Shown piece by piece: positions 14,912 to 22,500 of a DNA stretch of 64,000 nucleotides; the stretch's first letter is position 1; each line of letters opens with the position of its first letter. The stretch is from Pseudothauera nasutitermitis. Its GTDB lineage: Bacteria; Pseudomonadota; Gammaproteobacteria; Burkholderiales; Rhodocyclaceae. The notes under the pieces are model-generated. The model saw nothing but the letters and a program-made list of their open reading frames with translations, did not search any database and was not told where the DNA came from. Position numbers and translations under genes: made by a program. The DNA lies in NCBI RefSeq assembly GCF_004801295.1, contig NZ_SSOC01000003.1:62001-126000 (forward strand), in the 5' to 3' direction.

Positions 14912-16095
14912 CAAACCTCCAGCTTGTGTAGAACGCGCTCCGCGGCCTCCGCCAGCGCGCCAAGCGCGGCATGGCGCGCGCGCTTGGCGCGCCCGTGGCC
15001 GCGCAGCAGGGAACCGCCCGCCCCGGCCAGCAGGCCGATCCACCACGCCTGCCCGGCGGCCAGCGCCAGGCGGCTGGCGCCGGCCGACAGCAGGATCTCC
15101 GCGCCGCGCGCGCCGAAGCGTTCGCTGCGCTCCAGCAGGCTGCGCGAACGGTCGGCGAAGGTCGCCAGGGCCAGGAAGGCCAGCCCGGCCGGACTGGTCG
15201 CCCAGCCTCCGTCGGGCGCTTCTGCGCGCAGATCCGCCGGCTCCAGATCGGCCAGCGCGCGCTCCACCGCACGCGGGTCCGGCCCGTCTCCTGCAGCGCG
15301 TTCCAGCATGGCGCGCATCAACAGTTCGGCGGTGAGTTCGTCCACATCGTCGGAAACCAGATCGGCATGGCGGGCGAGCGCCGCGCGCACGTGCACGAGC
15401 GATTCCTCCGCCTTGCGCTGCAGGGCTGCGTTGCCCGCCCCGGCGCCATCCTCGATGCGGAATCCCGCCGCCTCGCCAGCAGCCGCCACGGCCGCGTAGC
15501 CGGCGGGCAGGTGCCCGCGATTGAGCCACTCGGCATAGCGCGCCGGCAGCGTCTCCATGCGCGCGGCCGGACCGGGCACGCATCCACGCACGCCCATCAG
15601 CGCCCGGTAGCGCTCGGCGCTGGCCGCGATGCGCGCGCCCAGCACGGCGAAATCCTCGCCGCCGAGCGCGGCGGCATCCAGCGCGCCGCCGACCTGCTCG
15701 ACCACCGTGGCGAACGCCCCGGCCGCCGCCGCGCCGATCGGTTCACCGGCTGCACGCGCGGCGGCCACCCCGCCGGCCGCGCGCCCCAGCACGGCGCCGG
15801 AACGCCGCAAGGCCTGCGCGCCCAGATCGCGCGCACGCTCTCCCAGCCCGCCCTCTGCGGAACGCGGCCCTTCACCCAGAGCCCTGCCGGCGGCGGACAG
15901 GCCGGCACCCGCGCCGTCGAGCAGATCGGCCGCGCTGCGCGCGGCTTCATCCACGCCGGCACCGATCACGCGGCGCACGTCATCCTTGTGCTCGCCCAGG
16001 GCGAGCGCGCCGTTGCCGGCCGCACGCAATGCGGACTTGAACAGGCTGCGTGCCTGAAAGCCCGCCTTGCGGGCCTTGTCGGTCAGATCGGACAT
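14911..16095 (-). CDS. Ala-rich helical protein of unknown function, coupled to the patatin gene
   Basis: A 394-residue protein not recognised as a known family. It is about one quarter alanine. The first 150 residues form amphipathic helices with Ala/Gly and basic spacing (for example FKSALRAAGNGALALGEH). A central acidic helical region contains DLVSDDVDELTAELLMRAM. A C-terminal hydrophobic segment, LALAAGQAWWIGLLAGAGG, is followed by a basic stretch, so peripheral or monotopic membrane association is likely. There is no signal peptide. It is co-transcribed with the patatin gene and diverges from the ferrosome-like operon across 462 bp, so it could belong functionally to either. The start at 16095 was taken because the longer frame upstream has no family support and crosses the promoter region. 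Confidence 0.7.
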   Translation of the reverse strand: MSDLTDKARKAGFQARSLFKSALRAAGNGALALGEHKDDVRRVIGAGVDEAARSAADLLDGAGAGLSAAGRALGEGPRSAEGGLGERARDLGAQALRRSGAVLGRAAGGVAAARAAGEPIGAAAAGAFATVVEQVGGALDAAALGGEDFAVLGARIAASAERYRALMGVRGCVPGPAARMETLPARYAEWLNRGHLPAGYAAVAAAGEAAGFRIEDGAGAGNAALQRKAEESLVHVRAALARHADLVSDDVDELTAELLMRAMLERAAGDGPDPRAVERALADLEPADLRAEAPDGGWATSPAGLAFLALATFADRSRSLLERSERFGARGAEILLSAGASRLALAAGQAWWIGLLAGAGGSLLRGHGRAKRARHAALGALAEAAERVLHKLEV

Positions 16096-16557
16096 GAACG
16101 CTCCATGCGTACTGGAATCCAGCCGCGGCCGGGGCGGGCCGCGAAGCTGCGGGATTATCCCACGCGCTCCCGGCACGCACGCGCATGTGCCGGTTTCGGC
16201 AGGTATCCGTCGGACCGCCGGATGCGCGCACGATTCCGGCACCCCGGTCCACACCCCCGTCGCGCAGCACGGCGTCGTGTTCATATCGCATGCCCCGCGG
16301 GCGCAATACCCCGCGCCGAGCCGCTCTTGACCGGCATCAGGGCCGCATGCGCCGGCAAGGCGTACGCTGTTCGGCAAATCGACCACGCGCACGCGGCGGA
16401 GTATGATTCCATCGGCACGACAGAGCAGTCCACCGTAGCCGGCCCGCATCGCCAGCATCCGCCAGCCAAGCGCCATACAGCGTGGAAACCGCCCGGCTCC
16501 TGGTCGTGTATCGATCCGTCGGCGCGTCCTCGACGCGCCGCTTTGCTGGAAGCCTTC
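16096..16557. promoter_or_regulatory. 462-bp divergent intergenic region upstream of the ferrosome-like operon
   Basis: No convincing gene is seen. A weak sigma-70-like pair is present on the plus strand: ATCGAC at 16378-16383 and TATGAT at 16402-16407, spaced 18 bp and about 150 bp before the first operon gene. No clear Fur palindrome was found by eye. The long leader suggests regulated transcription, but the binding sites are not identifiable from sequence alone. Confidence 0.4.
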
Positions 16558-16899
16558 ATGCCCGAATTCGAGGAACTGCGCGCATTCCTGAACAGTGTGC
16601 GCATCGCCCACCACATCCGCGGACGCATCCGCCTCAAGCTGCAGGGCGGCGTGCCTGGCGCCGTCGAACTGTCCGGCGCGCAGGCGCGCGCCTTCCAGTC
16701 CGTGCTCGACCGTCTTCCCGGCATCCAGTCCGTTCAGACCAACCTGCTCGCGCGCTCGTGCACGGTGATCTACGACACCGATGTGATTTCCGAGCGGGCC
16801 TGGGGCGACTTCCTGAGCGGCATCCAGTCCGAACCGGCAGGCAGGCTCGAACGCATCCTGCGCGATGCCTACCAGGAGATCGCCGATGCTCAATCATGA
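16558..16899 (+). CDS. Small HMA-like domain protein, first gene of the ferrosome-like operon
   Basis: A 113-residue soluble protein with a ferredoxin-like beta-alpha-beta pattern of the HMA_2 type. A strand with the motif RGRIRLKL (21-28) is followed by helix QARAFQSVLDRLPGI and strand SVQTNLLARSCTVIYD. The metal-binding CxxC of true HMA domains is absent. The same GR(I/V)R strand recurs at the N-terminus of the operon ATPase and in the convergent gene at 20870-21298. GGAAG precedes the start at a good distance. It overlaps the next gene by 14 bp. A role in protein-protein contact with the ATPase or in metal delivery to it is inferred from the context. Confidence 0.75.
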   Translation: MPEFEELRAFLNSVRIAHHIRGRIRLKLQGGVPGAVELSGAQARAFQSVLDRLPGIQSVQTNLLARSCTVIYDTDVISERAWGDFLSGIQSEPAGRLERILRDAYQEIADAQS

Positions 16900-17584
16900 C
16901 GAAACGATCCTGCGCACCCGGCGCATCGATCCGGCGGCACCGTTTCCGGTGGTCCATCAGGCGGTGCGCATCGCGCTGTACGACGAGTACGCGGCACGCA
17001 GCTTCCATGCGCGGGTGATCGAGGCCTTCGGCCCGCGCGCGCCCTTCCCCAAGGCCCTGCAGGGCTGCACGCAGCGCATCGGCATGCTGCTGAAGATCTG
17101 CGAGCGCTTCGGCATCCCCCGCCCGCTCGATCCCTTTCCGCAGGAAACCACCGTCGAACCCAGCTGGCTGGCAAACTGCCTGCGCGCCCTCGCGGGCGAG
17201 GCCGGCAAGGTCCGCCTGCATGCCGAACTGCTGATGCAGGTCGGCGAGCCCGCCGTCCGCCAGGTGCTCGAAGAACTCCAGCACGGCTCGCTGCACGAGT
17301 ACCTGCCGGCCTTCCAGCAGGCGGTGGAAGCCGCCCAGGCGCAGGAGAACTATCACGCCGCGCATGGCATCGGCCCGCAGCAGGCCTATGTGCGCCATGG
17401 CCCACTGGCCGATTTCCTCGAACGCGCGTTCGCCCAGCTCGGCCCCTACGCCGGACCACTCGGTCTATTCAGTCCGCTTCTGCGCCATACACCCCCCGCC
17501 ATGCTGGCCGGCATGGTCGCGGGCGGCGCCGGAGTCCATCTGTTGAAGAAAAACAGAATCGGCCGCCATCGCAAGGAGTCCTGA
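16886..17584 (+). CDS. Ferritin-like (DUF2202-like) protein with degenerate di-iron site and C-terminal membrane anchor
   Basis: A 232-residue protein whose helical pattern resembles the DUF2202 ferritin-like family. Helix one contains YDEYAARSF with Glu34, and helix two ends in KICERFGIPRPLDPFP. Helix three has Glu105, and helix four ends in EYLPAF. Where the family normally has ExxH in helix two there is CxxR (Cys61, Arg64). Where it has RHLPAF there is EYLPAF (Tyr139 for His). The usual four-helix di-iron site is therefore incomplete. Residues 204-220 form a short glycine-rich hydrophobic segment followed by a basic tail, suggesting membrane anchoring. AGGAG lies seven bases before the ATG. 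The family call rests on motif pattern and is moderately certain. Confidence 0.6.
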   Translation: MLNHDETILRTRRIDPAAPFPVVHQAVRIALYDEYAARSFHARVIEAFGPRAPFPKALQGCTQRIGMLLKICERFGIPRPLDPFPQETTVEPSWLANCLRALAGEAGKVRLHAELLMQVGEPAVRQVLEELQHGSLHEYLPAFQQAVEAAQAQENYHAAHGIGPQQAYVRHGPLADFLERAFAQLGPYAGPLGLFSPLLRHTPPAMLAGMVAGGAGVHLLKKNRIGRHRKES

Positions 17585-17585
17585 C

Positions 17586-17951
17586 ATGTTTCCGCTTTTC
17601 CCCTTCGTCGCAGGCGTGGTGACCGGCGCGGTCGCACTCCGCCTGCTCAAGACCGACAAGGCCGGCCAGAGCCTGGACATTGCCCGCCAGGGTCTGGACA
17701 AGGCGCGCGACAGCCTGCGCAGCGCCACCGTATCCAGCCTGGAGGCCATCGAAAGCGCCTCCAGCCGCGCCCGCTCACAGTTGGGCACGCCCGCGGCCGA
17801 GACCCCCGCCGCCGAGCCGGCAGCCGCCAAGCCCGCCCGCAAGCGTGCGCCGCGCGCGGCCAAGCCGGCAGGCAAGGCGGCCGGCAAGCCCGCCAGCGCC
17901 AAGGCCGCGCCCAAGAGTGCCGCCAAGGCTGACAAGGCGGCCGGCGAATGA
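17586..17951 (+). CDS. Small membrane protein with histone H1-like Lys/Ala/Pro-rich tail
   Basis: A 121-residue protein with an N-terminal hydrophobic segment (residues 4-21, FPFVAGVVTGAVALRLL). An amphipathic helix follows (28-65), then a 54-residue low-complexity tail rich in Ala, Lys and Pro (for example AAKPAGKAAGKPASAKAAPK). The tail resembles histone H1-like and magnetosome/polyphosphate-associated basic tails and is expected to be disordered and cationic. It starts one base after the ferritin-like gene and overlaps the next gene by four bases. A role in binding DNA, polyphosphate or an iron-phosphate mineral at a membrane surface is inferred only. Confidence 0.75.
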   Translation: MFPLFPFVAGVVTGAVALRLLKTDKAGQSLDIARQGLDKARDSLRSATVSSLEAIESASSRARSQLGTPAAETPAAEPAAAKPARKRAPRAAKPAGKAAGKPASAKAAPKSAAKADKAAGE

Positions 17952-18295
17952 ATGCACGCTTCGCACCGCGCACGGCCTTTCCGGCACCCGCCCGCCCACG
18001 CGGCGCGGGGGGCGGCTTCGCCCAGGGTTTCGTCACGGCGGGCTGCCTGTCCGCCTTCCAGGACCGCCCTTCCCCCCAATCGCCCACCGACCTGAGGCGC
18101 GTGCTGCGCCACGCCCTGCAGGGCGGCACGGCACTGGCCGCCGGCAGCCAGGCCGCGCAGGCCCTGCGCCAGCGCGACTACACCCGGGCGCTCGCCGCCA
18201 CGGTAGCCGGCGCGGCCGGCGTACTGCTCATCGAACAACTGCTGCGCGACGCAGCACCCAGCGAACAGGAGAACAGCAATGGGAAAAAAGCGTAA
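17948..18295 (+). CDS. Small putative membrane protein of the ferrosome-like operon
   Basis: A 115-residue protein of unknown family. A Pro/Arg/Gly-rich N-terminus (1-30) precedes an amphipathic helix (about 47-75, RRVLRHALQGGTALAAGSQA) and one hydrophobic segment (about 81-98, ALAATVAGAAGVLLIEQL). Its ATG overlaps the previous stop by four bases, and its 3' end overlaps the next gene by 17 bp. This supports it being a real translated member of the operon despite its lack of recognisable motifs. The Gly/Ala-spaced membrane helix suits tight helix packing. Confidence 0.7.
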   Translation: MNARFAPRTAFPAPARPRGAGGGFAQGFVTAGCLSAFQDRPSPQSPTDLRRVLRHALQGGTALAAGSQAAQALRQRDYTRALAATVAGAAGVLLIEQLLRDAAPSEQENSNGKKA

Positions 18296-18683
18296 GAAAG
18301 GCAACGGCCGCAACGACTATCAGCCGCCGTACGGGCAGTACGGCTACTACGGCCAGCAGGGCGATGCCGGCTTCGCCCCCGGCATGGGCGGCCCCGGCCT
18401 GCAGGAAGGGCTGCGCGCCGGGCTCAACGCCGCCGGGCTGGACGCGGGGCTGCTGCAAGGCATGCCGGCCTTTCTGCGTTCGCGCAACACCGAGCAGTTC
18501 CTGCTCGGCGCGCTGATCGGCGCGGCCGCCGCCTGGGTGCTGAGCGACGAGGAACTGCGCGGCAAGCTGGTCAAGTCCGCCATCAAGCTGTACGCGGGCG
18601 TGGCCGGCGGCTTCGAGGAAATGAAGGAGCAGATGGCCGACATCCGCGCCGAGGTGGAAGCGGAGCAGCACGGGGACGCATGA
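18279..18683 (+). CDS. Small membrane protein with Tyr/Gly-rich N-terminus
   Basis: A 134-residue protein. A basic start (MGKKRKKGNGR) is followed by a Tyr/Gly/Gln/Pro-rich low-complexity stretch (13-40). A Gly/Ala-spaced membrane helix then follows (71-89, TEQFLLGALIGAAAAWVLS), with a charged amphipathic C-terminal helix after it (about 90-130, GGFEEMKEQMADIRAEVE). AGGAG lies upstream of the start, inside the previous gene. The stop overlaps the ATPase ATG (ATGA at 18680-18683), indicating coupled synthesis with the pump. The low-complexity region could self-associate. It is not recognised as a named family. Confidence 0.78.
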   Translation: MGKKRKKGNGRNDYQPPYGQYGYYGQQGDAGFAPGMGGPGLQEGLRAGLNAAGLDAGLLQGMPAFLRSRNTEQFLLGALIGAAAAWVLSDEELRGKLVKSAIKLYAGVAGGFEEMKEQMADIRAEVEAEQHGDA

Positions 18684-20818
18684 TGGCGGCTGGCTGGGTC
18701 TCGGCGCTGGAGCCGGTCCATACGACACGCGGCCGGGTGCGCTGGCGCTACCGCTGCCACCCCGGCACGCCGCGCGAGGCACGCGTCATCGAGCGCGCCG
18801 TGGAAGGCATCGAGGGCGTGCACAAGGCACGCCTCAATCCCGCGGCACGCTCGCTGGTGGTGGAGTTCGACCCGGCGCTCACCGACGCGGAACGCATCGC
18901 CCTCGGCATCCTGCGCCTCACACCCGTCCCGCAACGCAACGGCGCCCCTCGCAACGACGAGGTCAGCGCCGCCCCGGTCGCGCTCAGCGCGGCCAGCCTG
19001 CTGGCCTCACGCACGCTCAACCCTGCCCTGCAGGCCCCGGTGGCACTGGGCACGGCGGTGCCGCTGTTCGGCGAGGCGGTCGACGACCTGCTCGAAAAGG
19101 GCGTGACCTCGCACGTGCTCGAAGCGCTCGCGGTGGCCATCTCCATCGGCCGGCGCGACTACCTGGCGGCCAACACCACCTCCTTCCTGCTCGCCCTCGG
19201 CGAGTATCTCGAAGCCTCCATCGAACGCCGTTCCGACGATCTGCTCAAACATCTGCTCAAGCCTGCGGACGATGCGGTATGGGTGGAGCGCGACGGCGTG
19301 GAAATGCAGATCGATGCCGCCGCGGTGAAGGTCGGCGACACGGTGATCGCCGCCACCGGCGGCATGGTCCCGGTCGATGGCACCGTGCTCGGCGGCGAGG
19401 CACTGGTCAACGAGGCGGCGATGACCGGCGAGAGCGTGCCGGTGGAACGCCGGCGCGGCGACCGCGTGCTGTCCGGCACGCTGGTCGAGGAAGGCCGCCT
19501 GCGCATCTATGCCGAACACGTCGGCGCGCAGGCCGCCGCCGCGCGCATTGCGGATTTCGTCGAACAGTCGCTGGCGGTGAAGAGCAACACCCAGCTCGAA
19601 GCCGCGCGCATGGCCGACCGCCTGGTGCCCATGGTGCTCGGGCTGGCGGGCGGCACCTGGCTGGTGTCGCGCGACTGGCAGCGCGTCGCGGCGGTGCTGC
19701 AGGCCGACTATTCCTGCGCGCTCAAGCTGTCGACGCCGGTCGCCTTCAAGGCGGCCATGTACGAGGCCGGCAAGGCCGGCATGCTGATCAAGGGCGCGAA
19801 GGCCCTGGAACGCCTGGCCGAGGCCGACACCTTCGTGTTCGACAAGACCGGCACGCTGAGCACCGGCAAGCTGGAGGTGACCGATTCGGTCGCCTTCAAG
19901 CAGGGCTATTCGCCGGAAGACCTGATCAACCTGGCCGCCTCGGTCGAGGAACACTACTTCCACCCGCTCGCCCTGGCCGTGGTCGAGGCCTCGCGGCGCC
20001 TGGACAATCCGCGCCACTTCGATCACAAGGAAGTCGAATTCATCGTCGCCCACGGCGTCGCCAGCGTCATCGACGGGCGGCGCATCGTGGTCGGCTCGCG
20101 CCACTTCGTCGAGGACGACGAGGGCATCCCCATCGACGCGCATTGCGTACTCATCGAACGCCTGCAGCGCGAAGGCAAGACCCTGCTCTACATCGGCTAC
20201 GGCGGCGAACTGCTGGGCGTGCTGGCGCTGCGCGACAGCCTGCGCCACAACAGCGCGGCCACCATCCGCCGCCTGCGCGAACTGGGAGTGAAGCACGTGC
20301 TGATGCTCACCGGCGACCACCCGGAACGCGCCAGCGCCACCGCCGGGGAGCTCGGCCTGGACGAATTCCACGCCGGCCTGCTGCCCGAGGACAAGGCGCG
20401 CATCCTGCAGGAACTGGCCGCCCGGGGCGCGCGCATCGCCTTCGTGGGCGACGGCGTCAACGATGCCCCCGCGCTCAGCGGCGCGCACGTCGGCATCTCC
20501 ATGCACAATGGCGCGGACGTCGCCCGCCTGGCCTCGGACGTGGCCCTGCTCGAGGACGACATCGCCCGCGTGGCCGACGCCAAGGCCCTGGCCCTGGCCA
20601 CGCGCCGGCTGATCGACAGCAACTTCAAGCTCACCGTGGGGCTCAACACCAGCATCCTGTCGGCCGCCGCCTTCGGCTGGCTGAAACCGATCGCCGCGTC
20701 CGCGCTGCACAACGGCACCACCATCGCGATCCTGCTGCGCGCACTGGCCGGCGCCGGGCTGCCGCACGCGCACAGGGCTCGTTCCGCAAGCGCCGGAGCA
20801 AGACACGGGAAGGGATGA
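18680..20818 (+). CDS. P1B-type metal ATPase with atypical YSC transmembrane motif (FezB-like candidate)
   Basis: A 712-residue heavy-metal-type P-ATPase. An N-terminal CxxC-less HMA-like domain (GRVR at 18-21) precedes weakly hydrophobic membrane segments. The catalytic motifs are intact: TGES (249-252) in the actuator domain, the phosphorylated Asp388 in DKTGT, MLTGDHP, and GDGVND (590-595). The membrane metal site reads YSCALKLSTP (Tyr344-Ser345-Cys346) instead of the usual CPC/SPC. The pump is therefore not a standard Cu/Ag (P1B-1) or Zn/Cd (P1B-2) type. Ferrosome clusters encode a P1B-6 ATPase, FezB, that loads an iron-storing vesicle. The six-gene context, with HMA-like and small membrane proteins, makes that the favoured inference. 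It is the last gene of the operon. Confidence 0.92.
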   Translation: MMAAGWVSALEPVHTTRGRVRWRYRCHPGTPREARVIERAVEGIEGVHKARLNPAARSLVVEFDPALTDAERIALGILRLTPVPQRNGAPRNDEVSAAPVALSAASLLASRTLNPALQAPVALGTAVPLFGEAVDDLLEKGVTSHVLEALAVAISIGRRDYLAANTTSFLLALGEYLEASIERRSDDLLKHLLKPADDAVWVERDGVEMQIDAAAVKVGDTVIAATGGMVPVDGTVLGGEALVNEAAMTGESVPVERRRGDRVLSGTLVEEGRLRIYAEHVGAQAAAARIADFVEQSLAVKSNTQLEAARMADRLVPMVLGLAGGTWLVSRDWQRVAAVLQADYSCALKLSTPVAFKAAMYEAGKAGMLIKGAKALERLAEADTFVFDKTGTLSTGKLEVTDSVAFKQGYSPEDLINLAASVEEHYFHPLALAVVEASRRLDNPRHFDHKEVEFIVAHGVASVIDGRRIVVGSRHFVEDDEGIPIDAHCVLIERLQREGKTLLYIGYGGELLGVLALRDSLRHNSAATIRRLRELGVKHVLMLTGDHPERASATAGELGLDEFHAGLLPEDKARILQELAARGARIAFVGDGVNDAPALSGAHVGISMHNGADVARLASDVALLEDDIARVADAKALALATRRLIDSNFKLTVGLNTSILSAAAFGWLKPIAASALHNGTTIAILLRALAGAGLPHAHRARSASAGARHGKG

Positions 20819-20869
20819 ACGCAGAGGCGCGGCGGGACACCACCCGGCCGCGCGGCGGCGGCCCCTCGC

Positions 20870-21298
20870 TCAGCGCAGGATATGCTTGCGATGCACCGCG
20901 AGATGCACGCCCAGACAGGCGACGAACACCCCGCCGGCCACCGCGTGCCAGTGCTTCTGCCCTGCGGCGGCAAGTACCAGCGAAGTCCCCAGGCTACCCA
21001 GCATGCCGAGCTTGGCCGCTCGATTGACACGATTGCGCAGGCGGTGGCGGCCCTTGCGCCGCGGCGCCGCCAGCACCGCATCGACGGCCTCGTCGACCGT
21101 GCGCTCGAACGCTTCCACATCGATCCGCCCGGCATCGTAATGCAGCACGATGCTGCCGGCCGCCGCATTGCCGCGCAGTCCGGCCACGCCCTCCAGCGCC
21201 GCCAGGGTCTGTTCGAGCAGATCGAGCCGGTCGGGTGCGCGCAGCGCGGGGTCGCGGACGCGGATGCGACCGGGCAGGGAGGAAACGATGCGGGTCAT
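20870..21298 (-). CDS. HMA-like domain membrane protein, convergent to the ATPase
   Basis: A 142-residue protein. Residues 1-75 form an HMA_2-like domain lacking CxxC, with the same GRIRVR strand (10-15) seen in the operon. The pattern continues through helix LDLLEQTLAALEGV and strand SIVLHYDAG. A basic linker (RRKGRHRLRNRVNR) leads to two hydrophobic segments (about 95-111 and 116-135). The gene faces the ATPase with a 51-bp gap, so it has its own promoter near 21300. Shared domain type and position suggest it is part of the same system, perhaps a membrane adaptor or a regulator of ATPase assembly. Confidence 0.8.
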   Translation of the reverse strand: MTRIVSSLPGRIRVRDPALRAPDRLDLLEQTLAALEGVAGLRGNAAAGSIVLHYDAGRIDVEAFERTVDEAVDAVLAAPRRKGRHRLRNRVNRAAKLGMLGSLGTSLVLAAAGQKHWHAVAGGVFVACLGVHLAVHRKHILR

Positions 21299-21381
21299 GA
21301 TGTGTGTCCTGATGGTGCTGCGGAATCACCCTAGCACCCGCGCGGCAGCCAGGCAATACGGCGCCCGATGCCGCAAAAAGA

Positions 21382-21406
21382 AAAAGCCACTCGATGAGTG
21401 GCTTTT
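21382..21406 (-). terminator. Intrinsic terminator after tRNA-Pro
   Basis: Perfect 11-bp arms (21382-21392 and 21396-21406, core GCCACTC/GAGTGGC) with a three-base loop. On the minus strand they are followed by TTTTTCTTTTT-type sequence. It lies 11 bp past the tRNA CCA end and should stop tRNA-Pro transcription. Confidence 0.88.
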
Positions 21407-21417
21407 CCGGGAATGGA

Positions 21418-21494
21418 TGGTCGGGGAAAGAGGATTCGAACCTCCGGCCCCTGCGTCCCGAACGCAGTGCTCTACCAGGCTGAGCTATTCCCCG
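21418..21494 (-). tRNA. tRNA-Pro(CGG)
   Basis: A 77-nt cloverleaf read on the minus strand, with encoded CCA at 21420-21418. The acceptor stem CGGGGAA/TTCCCCG is perfect. The D-arm has GCTC/GAGC. The anticodon arm CTGCG-TTCGGGA-CGCAG gives anticodon CGG with G37, and the T-arm has GGTTCGAATCC. It reads CCG proline codons, which are common in this high-GC genome. A terminator follows directly, and ispB lies 37 bp upstream on the same strand. There is no sign of an integrated element at this tRNA. Confidence 0.97.
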
Positions 21495-21531
21495 ACACTT
21501 TTACTTTCGCCTCGCGAAGCCGATCAATATA

Positions 21532-22500
21532 TCAGCGATCTCGCGTAACCGCAAAGTCTGATAATTGTAGCAGCGCGTCCTTGAAAATGGAAGGGGGCAA
21601 GGCCCGCAGCGCCTCGGCCGCCAGCACGGCTTCGGCCTGCGCGTGGCGGCGGCTCACCTCCAGCGCGCCGGTGGCACGGATGGCCGCCAGCACGGCCTGG
21701 AAATCGTCGCGCCCGCCGCTTTCGATGGCCCCGCGCACCACCCCGGCCTGCTCGGCGCTGCCGTGCTGCATCACGTGGATCAGCGGCAACGTGGGCTTGC
21801 CCTCGGCGAGGTCGTCGCCCAGATGCTTACCGGTGGCCGCCTCGTCGGACGAATAATCGAGCACGTCGTCGATGATCTGGAAGGCCGTGCCCAGATGCAT
21901 GCCGTAGGCCGCCAGCCCCTCTTCCTGCTCGGCCGTGCCACCGCCCAGGATGCCGCCCAGGCGCGCGGCGGCCTCGAACAGCTTGGCGGTCTTGTAGCGG
22001 ATCACGCGCAGGTAGTCGTCGATGCCAACGTCGGCGTCGTGACAGTTGAGCAGTTGCAGCACCTCGCCTTCGGCGATGATGTTGGTGGCGTCGGCCAGCA
22101 CCTGCATGACGCGCATGTCGTTCACACCGACCATCATCTGGAAAGCGCGTGAATACAGGAAATCGCCCACCAGCACGGAGGCGGCGTTGCCGAACATGGC
22201 GTTGGCGGTCTTGTTGCCGCGGCGCAGTTCGGATTCGTCGACCACGTCGTCGTGCAGCAGCGTGGCGGTATGGATGAATTCCACCACCGCGGCGAGTTCA
22301 TGGTGATGGGTGCCCTGGTAGCCCATCGCGCCGGCGGTGTACAGCACCAGCGCCGGACGCAGGCGCTTGCCGCCGCTGTGGATGATGTATTCGGCCACCT
22401 GTCGGACCAGCACCACGTCCGAGTGGAGGCGCTGACGGATCACCGCGTCGACGGCCTGCATGTCGGCGGCGATCGGGGCGAAGAGCTGCTGGATGGACAC
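21532..22500 (-). CDS. ispB: Octaprenyl diphosphate synthase IspB
   Basis: IspB makes the all-trans octaprenyl diphosphate side chain of ubiquinone. The two aspartate-rich motifs are present: LLHDDVVDES (first DDxxD-type motif) and FQIIDDVLDYSSD (second). GGKRLRPAL and FLYSRAFQMM complete the trans-prenyltransferase pattern. A GTG start at 22500 (VSIQQLFAPIAADMQ) gives 322 residues, the usual IspB length; the longer open frame to 22578 adds a non-family N-terminus. In many betaproteobacteria ispB sits beside rplU. Here rplU lies about 39 kb away, so the neighbourhood is rearranged. Confidence 0.94.
   Translation of the reverse strand: MSIQQLFAPIAADMQAVDAVIRQRLHSDVVLVRQVAEYIIHSGGKRLRPALVLYTAGAMGYQGTHHHELAAVVEFIHTATLLHDDVVDESELRRGNKTANAMFGNAASVLVGDFLYSRAFQMMVGVNDMRVMQVLADATNIIAEGEVLQLLNCHDADVGIDDYLRVIRYKTAKLFEAAARLGGILGGGTAEQEEGLAAYGMHLGTAFQIIDDVLDYSSDEAATGKHLGDDLAEGKPTLPLIHVMQHGSAEQAGVVRGAIESGGRDDFQAVLAAIRATGALEVSRRHAQAEAVLAAEALRALPPSIFKDALLQLSDFAVTRDR

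Follow-up and report, generated by a model that had tools for sequence, protein, structure and literature searches.

The 64-kb stretch of DNA analysed here (the window) comes from the 4.72-Mb genome of Pseudothauera nasutitermitis and holds, at positions 16558-21298, seven genes that probably form an extended, seven-gene version of a fez (ferrosome) cluster in a Thauera-like betaproteobacterium. The most likely reading of these genes is that they build ferrosomes. To our knowledge, only a handful of bacteria have been shown to form ferrosomes. An earlier note on this DNA had claimed that the locus is fez-like and builds a compartment comparable to ferrosomes. The clade and motifs of a P1B-6-type ATPase, the FezA-like and FezC-like genes, the synteny and the linkage of relatives to feo genes speak for this claim, and a search for Fur boxes speaks against it. 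The note's reading is only partly supported, because the organelle itself is something that we infer and because one proposed part, the ferritin-like protein, has lost active-site ligands. The note had also described six overlapping or abutting plus-strand genes followed by a convergent HMA-like gene, and all seven open reading frames were verified. The six plus-strand frames (16558-20818) overlap their neighbours by 4-17 bases, with a single internal gap of 1 base, and the seventh lies convergently on the minus strand. When trained on the ATPase, a gene caller based on codon usage recovered 7/7 genes, with later starts for P0003 and P0004.

P0006 (18680-20818, plus strand, 712 amino acids) is a FezB-like ATPase for which Pfam reports a P-type ATPase (E1-E2_ATPase, 1e-36) with an N-terminal HMA domain. 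Its fourth transmembrane segment (TM4) reads SCALKLSTP at the site where Cu and Zn pumps have CPC, which bears out the unusual membrane motif noticed earlier. We take the SCALKL signature to be the mark of the P1B-6 type. The protein also has an R-rich motif in its N-terminal HMA-like domain and the string LHNGTT near the C-terminus. In a tree of 64 ATPases, a branch with a Shimodaira-Hasegawa-like approximate likelihood ratio (SH-aLRT) support of 97 separated 42 rows with the SCAx motif, P0006 included, from 22 others, among them four CPC pumps from the window's own genome and one sequence (L037_o0) that has a very long branch and is not metal-pump-like. The 64 rows were selected and represent a subset of the loci; L040 is not among them, since extraction required the exact string DKTGT, which its ATPase does not contain. 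The motifs followed the same division. An HN pair was found within the last 75 residues of 42/42 SCAx rows and 5/22 others, a CP or SP motif in TM4 in 0/42 and 21/22, and CxxC in the first 200 residues in 0/42 and 7/22. The N-terminal R-rich motif was present in 39/42 SCAx rows compared to 2/22 others, a contrast that is partly fitted because the first pattern (16/42, missing P0006 itself) was loosened after the misses were seen. The available parts of the published sources list a conserved HN motif in TM6 among the features of P1B-6 ATPases (PMC9374683), tabulate the P1B-6 substrate as Fe(II) (PMC7558416) and record that, as of 2016, P1B-6 members were without any biochemical study (PMC4932525). 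Assignment of P0006 to the P1B-6 type is thus well supported by sequence, in a comparison whose tree contained no formally typed P1B-6 reference. P1B-6-type ATPases were also seen in Methanobrevibacter genomes (L045, L051, L055, L056 and L076), with a small upstream gene in 4/5 of these loci; in the exception, L045, the gene start lies near a contig end.

An ordinary P1B ATPase operon for Cu, Zn or Co resistance would fit two observations: the TIGR01525 and TIGR01512 models (heavy-metal/cadmium-family P-type ATPase) score above their cut-offs, and annotated plasmid relatives bear the name 'heavy metal translocating P-type ATPase'. Grouping with Cu, Zn or Co pumps, which the earlier note would have counted against its claim, did not occur; the tree sets P0006 apart from all 22 other ATPases, the CPC pumps of the same genome included. 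P0006 has neither CP nor SP in TM4 and no CxxC in its first 200 residues, and its relatives are linked to feo genes. On the evidence of tree and motifs we reject this explanation and give it hardly any weight.

P0005 (18279-18683, plus strand, 134 amino acids) lies directly before the ATPase gene and is labelled FezA-like by this position. It is composed of a basic N-terminus, a Gly/Ala-rich hydrophobic segment and an E/K amphipathic helix. A same-strand gene of at most 150 amino acids directly precedes the ATPase gene in 58/62 P1B-6 loci, and the four misses lie near contig ends. In at least two of the 58 (L032 and L033), the preceding gene as called is not FezA-like and a FezA-like frame lies nearby. 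The 62 loci derive from 66 submitted to the gene caller, after removal of L064, L083, L040 (uncalled) and L095 (without the motif). Profile comparison by hhalign matched the P0005 family to a Desulfovibrionaceae/delta set at 84.9% (E 6.5e-6) and to a mixed set of archaeal, spirochaete and other proteins at 93.4%, compared to 0.8% and 1.7% for reversed controls. DUF6110 was matched by the FezA-like protein of a Lachnospiraceae-type locus (L043) at 140 bits and, barely, by that of a Desulfovibrionaceae locus (L037; 26.1 bits against a cut-off of 26). According to the accessible part of one report, DUF6110 proteins are typically co-encoded with P1B-6 pumps (PMC9374683).

These two DUF6110 matches also bear on a different explanation, in which the ATPase and one-helix proteins would cluster in the cell membrane as a plasma-membrane efflux platform for iron or another metal, with no organelle, much as PacL1-CtpC of Mycobacterium. 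The same source, as far as available, describes membrane foci formed by a small membrane protein and a P-ATPase and suggests that DUF6110 proteins may act alike (PMC9374683), and from sequence an organelle cannot be told from the plasma membrane. PacL1-CtpC and the window share a one-helix small protein co-encoded with a P1B ATPase and an HN motif in TM6 (PMC9374683). However, CtpC keeps CPC in TM4 and serves zinc resistance in that account (PMC9374683), whereas P0006 has SCALKL and no CPC. The C-terminal metal-binding motif DLHDHDH given there for PacL (PMC9374683) is absent from P0005, which ends in AEVEAEQHGDA. The available text describes no FezC-like or ferritin-fold gene for PacL1-CtpC (PMC9374683), whereas the window has both. 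The FezC-like gene, the CxxC-free HMA_2 genes and the gene for a ferritin-fold protein bring the cluster nearer to a ferrosome locus than to PacL loci, and we consider an efflux platform unlikely, if still worth keeping in view beside the ferrosome reading.

The convergent gene, P0007 (20870-21298, minus strand, 142 amino acids), had been described earlier as an HMA-like membrane gene. Pfam agrees (HMA_2, 1.7e-7), and a profile match further identifies the product as FezC-like. Its second part has two hydrophobic helices with two conserved His and a DUF4405 match below the cut-off (E=0.005). The P0007 family profile, which was built with the window protein included, aligns near end to end, both His included, with the gene after the ATPase in two Desulfovibrionaceae loci (L037 and L085). 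FezC is described as a DUF4405-related haem-b cytochrome in the part of the source available (PMC10979944), and P0007 is a candidate for such a cytochrome. In at least 13 of 27 same-family loci, the FezC-like gene is the immediate upstream neighbour of the remaining fez genes and shares their orientation. In L031, L038 and Arcobacter, what look like small genes of their own encode the HMA and DUF4405-like parts, and the two FezC halves seem to occur separately in several lineages. Short stand-alone genes of DUF4405-like appearance were seen beside P1B-6 ATPases in L033 (upstream of 1794), L031 (3414-3722), L038 (9159-9410) and L034 (9667-9879). At the other end of the cluster, the HMA-like nature claimed for the first gene was upheld: P0001 (16558-16899, plus strand, 113 amino acids) matches Pfam HMA_2/HMA (HMA_2, 5.4e-7), carries the motif HHIRGRIRLK and has no CxxC.

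The fez operons and the window share a P1B-6-type ATPase, a FezA-like gene directly before it and a FezC-like protein with HMA and DUF4405 parts. Desulfovibrio magneticus reportedly has fezABC, the Shewanella ferrosome operon is said to hold six genes, and published fez operons reportedly include further small membrane and HMA genes, as the window does. The six-gene operon that the earlier note mentioned for Rhodopseudomonas corresponds to RPA2333-2338 of R. palustris CGA009, given as six fez genes in the available part of the source (PMC12016538). The window differs from these operons in that its FezC-like gene is convergent; the organelle is known in the fez hosts, whereas here it is predicted from the genes. 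The ferritin-fold protein P0002 and the basic-tailed P0003 are without counterpart in the fez descriptions compared, which were secondary accounts.

The ATPase is rare in the phylum, being found in 7/299 sampled genomes at E 1e-100 with its own genome included. Within the family, which we take to be Rhodocyclaceae, it was found in 30/249 genomes at E 1e-95, and 28 of these copies are at least 59% identical. Among the best 80 ATPase matches, the nearest named relatives are Thauera butanivorans (86% identity) and Pseudothauera rhizosphaerae (72%), and none of the four species with published ferrosomes is included. Across 27 same-family loci, the P0005 and P0006 families are each present in 27, P0003 in 26, P0001 and P0007 in 25, P0004 in 24 and P0002 in 13. 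Not counted in it are L028 and L029, which we took for the same species as L123 and L125, L030, which belongs to another group, and L148 and L149; the ATPases of the last two are 41% and 36% identical, and that of L149 has SPAELGLATP and is not P1B-6. Plasmids of other classes carry the set as well. Plasmid p3 of Azospirillum brasilense Cd (L160) has all of it except P0002, convergent with an iron ATP-binding cassette transporter. The genes there are annotated as HMA2, an HMA-type 'cation transporter', two hypotheticals, YtxH and a P-type ATPase (only as heavy metal translocating). On a 133-kb Arcobacter plasmid (L161), six genes stand in the same order as in the window, with the ferritin-like gene among them and a stand-alone DUF4405-like gene after them, and the profiles of families 1-5 matched there with E-values from 3e-29 to 4e-6 (in a small set of open reading frames). 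Because the core order recurs in most of the 27 family loci and on plasmids from two further classes, the cluster is more than a chance association.

We also found that P1B-6 loci are linked to ferrous iron uptake genes of the feo type. In 20/92 P1B-6 loci, compared to 0/23 others, FeoB is encoded no more than 5 kb from the ATPase (p=0.007, or p=0.011 once two duplicate loci are dropped; the test ignores kinship). We count this linkage as a supporting trait that forms no part of a published definition of fez clusters. The 115 loci counted are L021-L107 and L122-L149, and the 23 others are those whose ATPase lacks the motif pattern; one of them, L095, may be a divergent P1B-6 relative. The 20 linked loci are a lower bound because many loci are short. 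In a genome of the same genus (G300), Pfam matches to FeoA, FeoA, FeoB and FeoC follow directly after the ATPase (compare positions 5771-8897 of L027).

P0002 (16886-17584, plus strand, 232 amino acids) had been called ferritin-like, and this description holds for its predicted fold and its relatives, not for its active site. AlphaFold predicts a four-helix bundle (helices 22-48, 54-75, 94-118 and 122-159) with a predicted local distance difference test (pLDDT) score of 82.9. The top Foldseek matches are ferritin-like, with probabilities of 0.99-1.00 in the 50 rows shown and none at E<=0.001 (best E 3.3e-3). A Pfam search of the window copy gave no match above cut-off; its relatives in L130, L034 and L038 are above the DUF2202 cut-off and that in L123 is below. 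The second gene of the Arcobacter plasmid is annotated as DUF2202, yet falls below the Pfam cut-off (18.1 against 22 bits). P0002 thus shares its predicted four-helix bundle with the DUF2202/ferritin-like superfamily (rubrerythrin, YciE, bacterial ferritin), and its relatives match DUF2202 and, weakly, rubrerythrin; it differs in a C-terminal extension and in the loss of the helix-B ExxH. We assigned the di-iron ligand positions on the assumption that the general pattern E, ExxH, E, H applies. The window copy retains the helix-A and helix-C Glu, has GCTQR at the helix-B ExxH site and Tyr for the helix-D His, and is therefore incomplete in this ligand set. A frameshift behind the altered motif was considered and rejected, as the other two frames, read by eye, give no ExxH. 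A different E-x-x-H is found where the long fourth helix ends in each of the 14 aligned same-family rows and in neither L034 nor L038. The C-terminal stretch is of moderate hydrophobicity at most (peak 1.16; relatives 0.93-1.67) and might conceivably act as a membrane anchor. DUF2202 relatives also occur on four plasmids without a match in the ATPase search, which shows that this domain is not confined to fez loci.

If P0002 were instead a functional ferroxidase or mini-ferritin, mineralising iron in or on the organelle, the ferritin-like predicted fold would be expected, as would the retained helix-A and helix-C Glu and the helix-B ExxH kept in 8/15 aligned rows covering the site and in the Arcobacter DUF2202 gene. 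The relative in L123 retains the ligands. The other 7/15 rows, the window included, lack the helix-B motif, and the gene itself is absent from 14/27 same-family loci. Because both the helix-B ExxH and the helix-D His are lost, ferroxidase activity is unlikely in the window strain, and a working ferroxidase seems to us an improbable role compared to that of a scaffold. A ferritin-like protein as a new part of the system, which the earlier note had suggested, accordingly keeps its predicted fold and loses its active-site ligands. Across the P0002 family, it is possible that a ferritin fold is turning into a scaffold.

The earlier note had counted three small membrane proteins. The hydropathy peak is clear in P0003 (1.78, at residue 3) and in P0004 (1.80), and modest in P0005 (1.34); by sequence, all three are likely membrane proteins. 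P0004 (17948-18295, plus strand, 115 amino acids) is small, Gly/Ala-rich and probably membrane-embedded, and its homologues also occur on the Azospirillum and Arcobacter plasmids. P0003 (17586-17951, plus strand, 121 amino acids) has one hydrophobic stretch and an amphipathic region in its N-terminal half, and this first half gave a profile match of 92.6% to the FezA-like family. The other half is a basic tail rich in Ala, Pro and Lys. The last 60 residues are net basic in 27/29 rows of the family, and the Arcobacter tail is rich in Lys; in Azospirillum and in the remaining 2/29 rows the tail is not basic. P0003 can be likened to PhaF of Pseudomonas putida. In the accessible part of the account, PhaF binds DNA non-specifically, is essential for granule location and segregation, and combines a granule-binding N-terminal part with a disordered, nucleoid-protein-like DNA-binding part (PMC3574117). 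P0003 would be an analogue of PhaF, not a homologue; its N-terminal half is FezA-like, and DNA binding by its tail is a proposal made by analogy.

Several results weigh against reading the cluster as a fez cluster. Its membership of the fez kind is well supported by sequence comparison and was assigned without comparison to any characterised Fez sequence. In profile comparisons, the P0005 family matched a Firmicutes set at 17.4%, which is not significant, and a second proteobacterial set matched the same Firmicutes set at 8.2%, which does not exceed its controls. No Feo match was found in the window, and a feo block of the G300 type is absent at 20818-20870. Nothing in the window genome matched FeoB over its full length: the closest sequence to the G300 FeoB (E 2.6e-8) aligns over ~160 residues in the GTPase part, and the top FeoB_N score is 55 bits compared to 220 for the G300 protein. 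The Fur box was not enriched, being at threshold in 2/29 operon upstreams compared to 27/283 control upstreams. One relative (L141) has a good Fur-like site upstream (15/19 positions). Fur repression has been reported for C. difficile (PMC12574912); we do not treat Fur control as defining for every fez member. To these must be added the lost helix-B and helix-D ligands, low C-terminal hydropathy and patchy occurrence of P0002, and the exceptions to the basic tail of P0003.

If the cluster is of the fez kind, its parts could work together as follows. P0005 and P0003, which resembles a paralogue of it, would together with P0004 shape or scaffold small membrane vesicles, into which P0006 would pump Fe(II). 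P0007, as a haem-b candidate, and P0001, which lacks CxxC, may serve in iron delivery and redox reactions at the membrane. P0002 would sit with the iron store and, in the window strain, would more likely offer a scaffold or a surface for binding than act as a ferroxidase. With its basic tail, P0003 may bind a polyanion, which could be DNA, so that the organelle is placed and partitioned, or phosphate within the store. In this scheme we infer which metal is moved and in which direction, that there is a vesicle, and what the small proteins do, P0002, P0003 and P0004 included.

More speculatively, the cluster may represent an extended type of ferrosome found in the Thauera family and on plasmids of other classes. 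Its organelle would contain a ferritin-fold protein that is an active ferroxidase in some strains and has degenerated to a scaffold in others. A FezA-derived protein would use its basic tail to tie the organelle to the nucleoid, or to its phosphate core, as PhaF does in positioning carbon-storage granules. We hold this wider proposal only tentatively and think it doubtful as a whole. P0002, with its ferritin fold, and P0003, with its FezA-like half and basic tail, look new as parts. We found no account of this cluster in the literature on ferrosomes, P1B-6 ATPases and DUF2202, which was covered mainly by titles and abstracts and thinly for subscription journals. If the fez reading is true, a conserved cluster in culturable betaproteobacteria with a close relative on an A. 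brasilense plasmid would offer tractable hosts, and its gene set would allow testing which parts make the vesicle. It would also allow a test of whether a single system combines ferritin-type and vesicle-type iron storage, and of how the cell positions the organelle.

The regulatory evidence upstream of the operon is weak. An FNR/Anr-like palindrome, TTGACCGGCATCAG, lies at 16327-16340 (plus strand), upstream of a sigma-70-like promoter match at 16379-16407 (plus strand, 9/12 positions). The palindrome is the sole match in 64 kb to a narrow pattern that was fitted to this very site and is thus not independent evidence; 20/100 shuffles also hold one. The promoter match is 1 found compared to 0.3 expected in 16000-21600. 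Among relatives, an FNR/Anr-like box of at least 8/10 positions occurs in 7/29 operon upstreams compared to 31/283 controls (one-sided p=0.046), an excess that is weak because the threshold was chosen after a first look. Beyond P0007, a tRNA-Pro gene lies at 21418-21494 on the minus strand.

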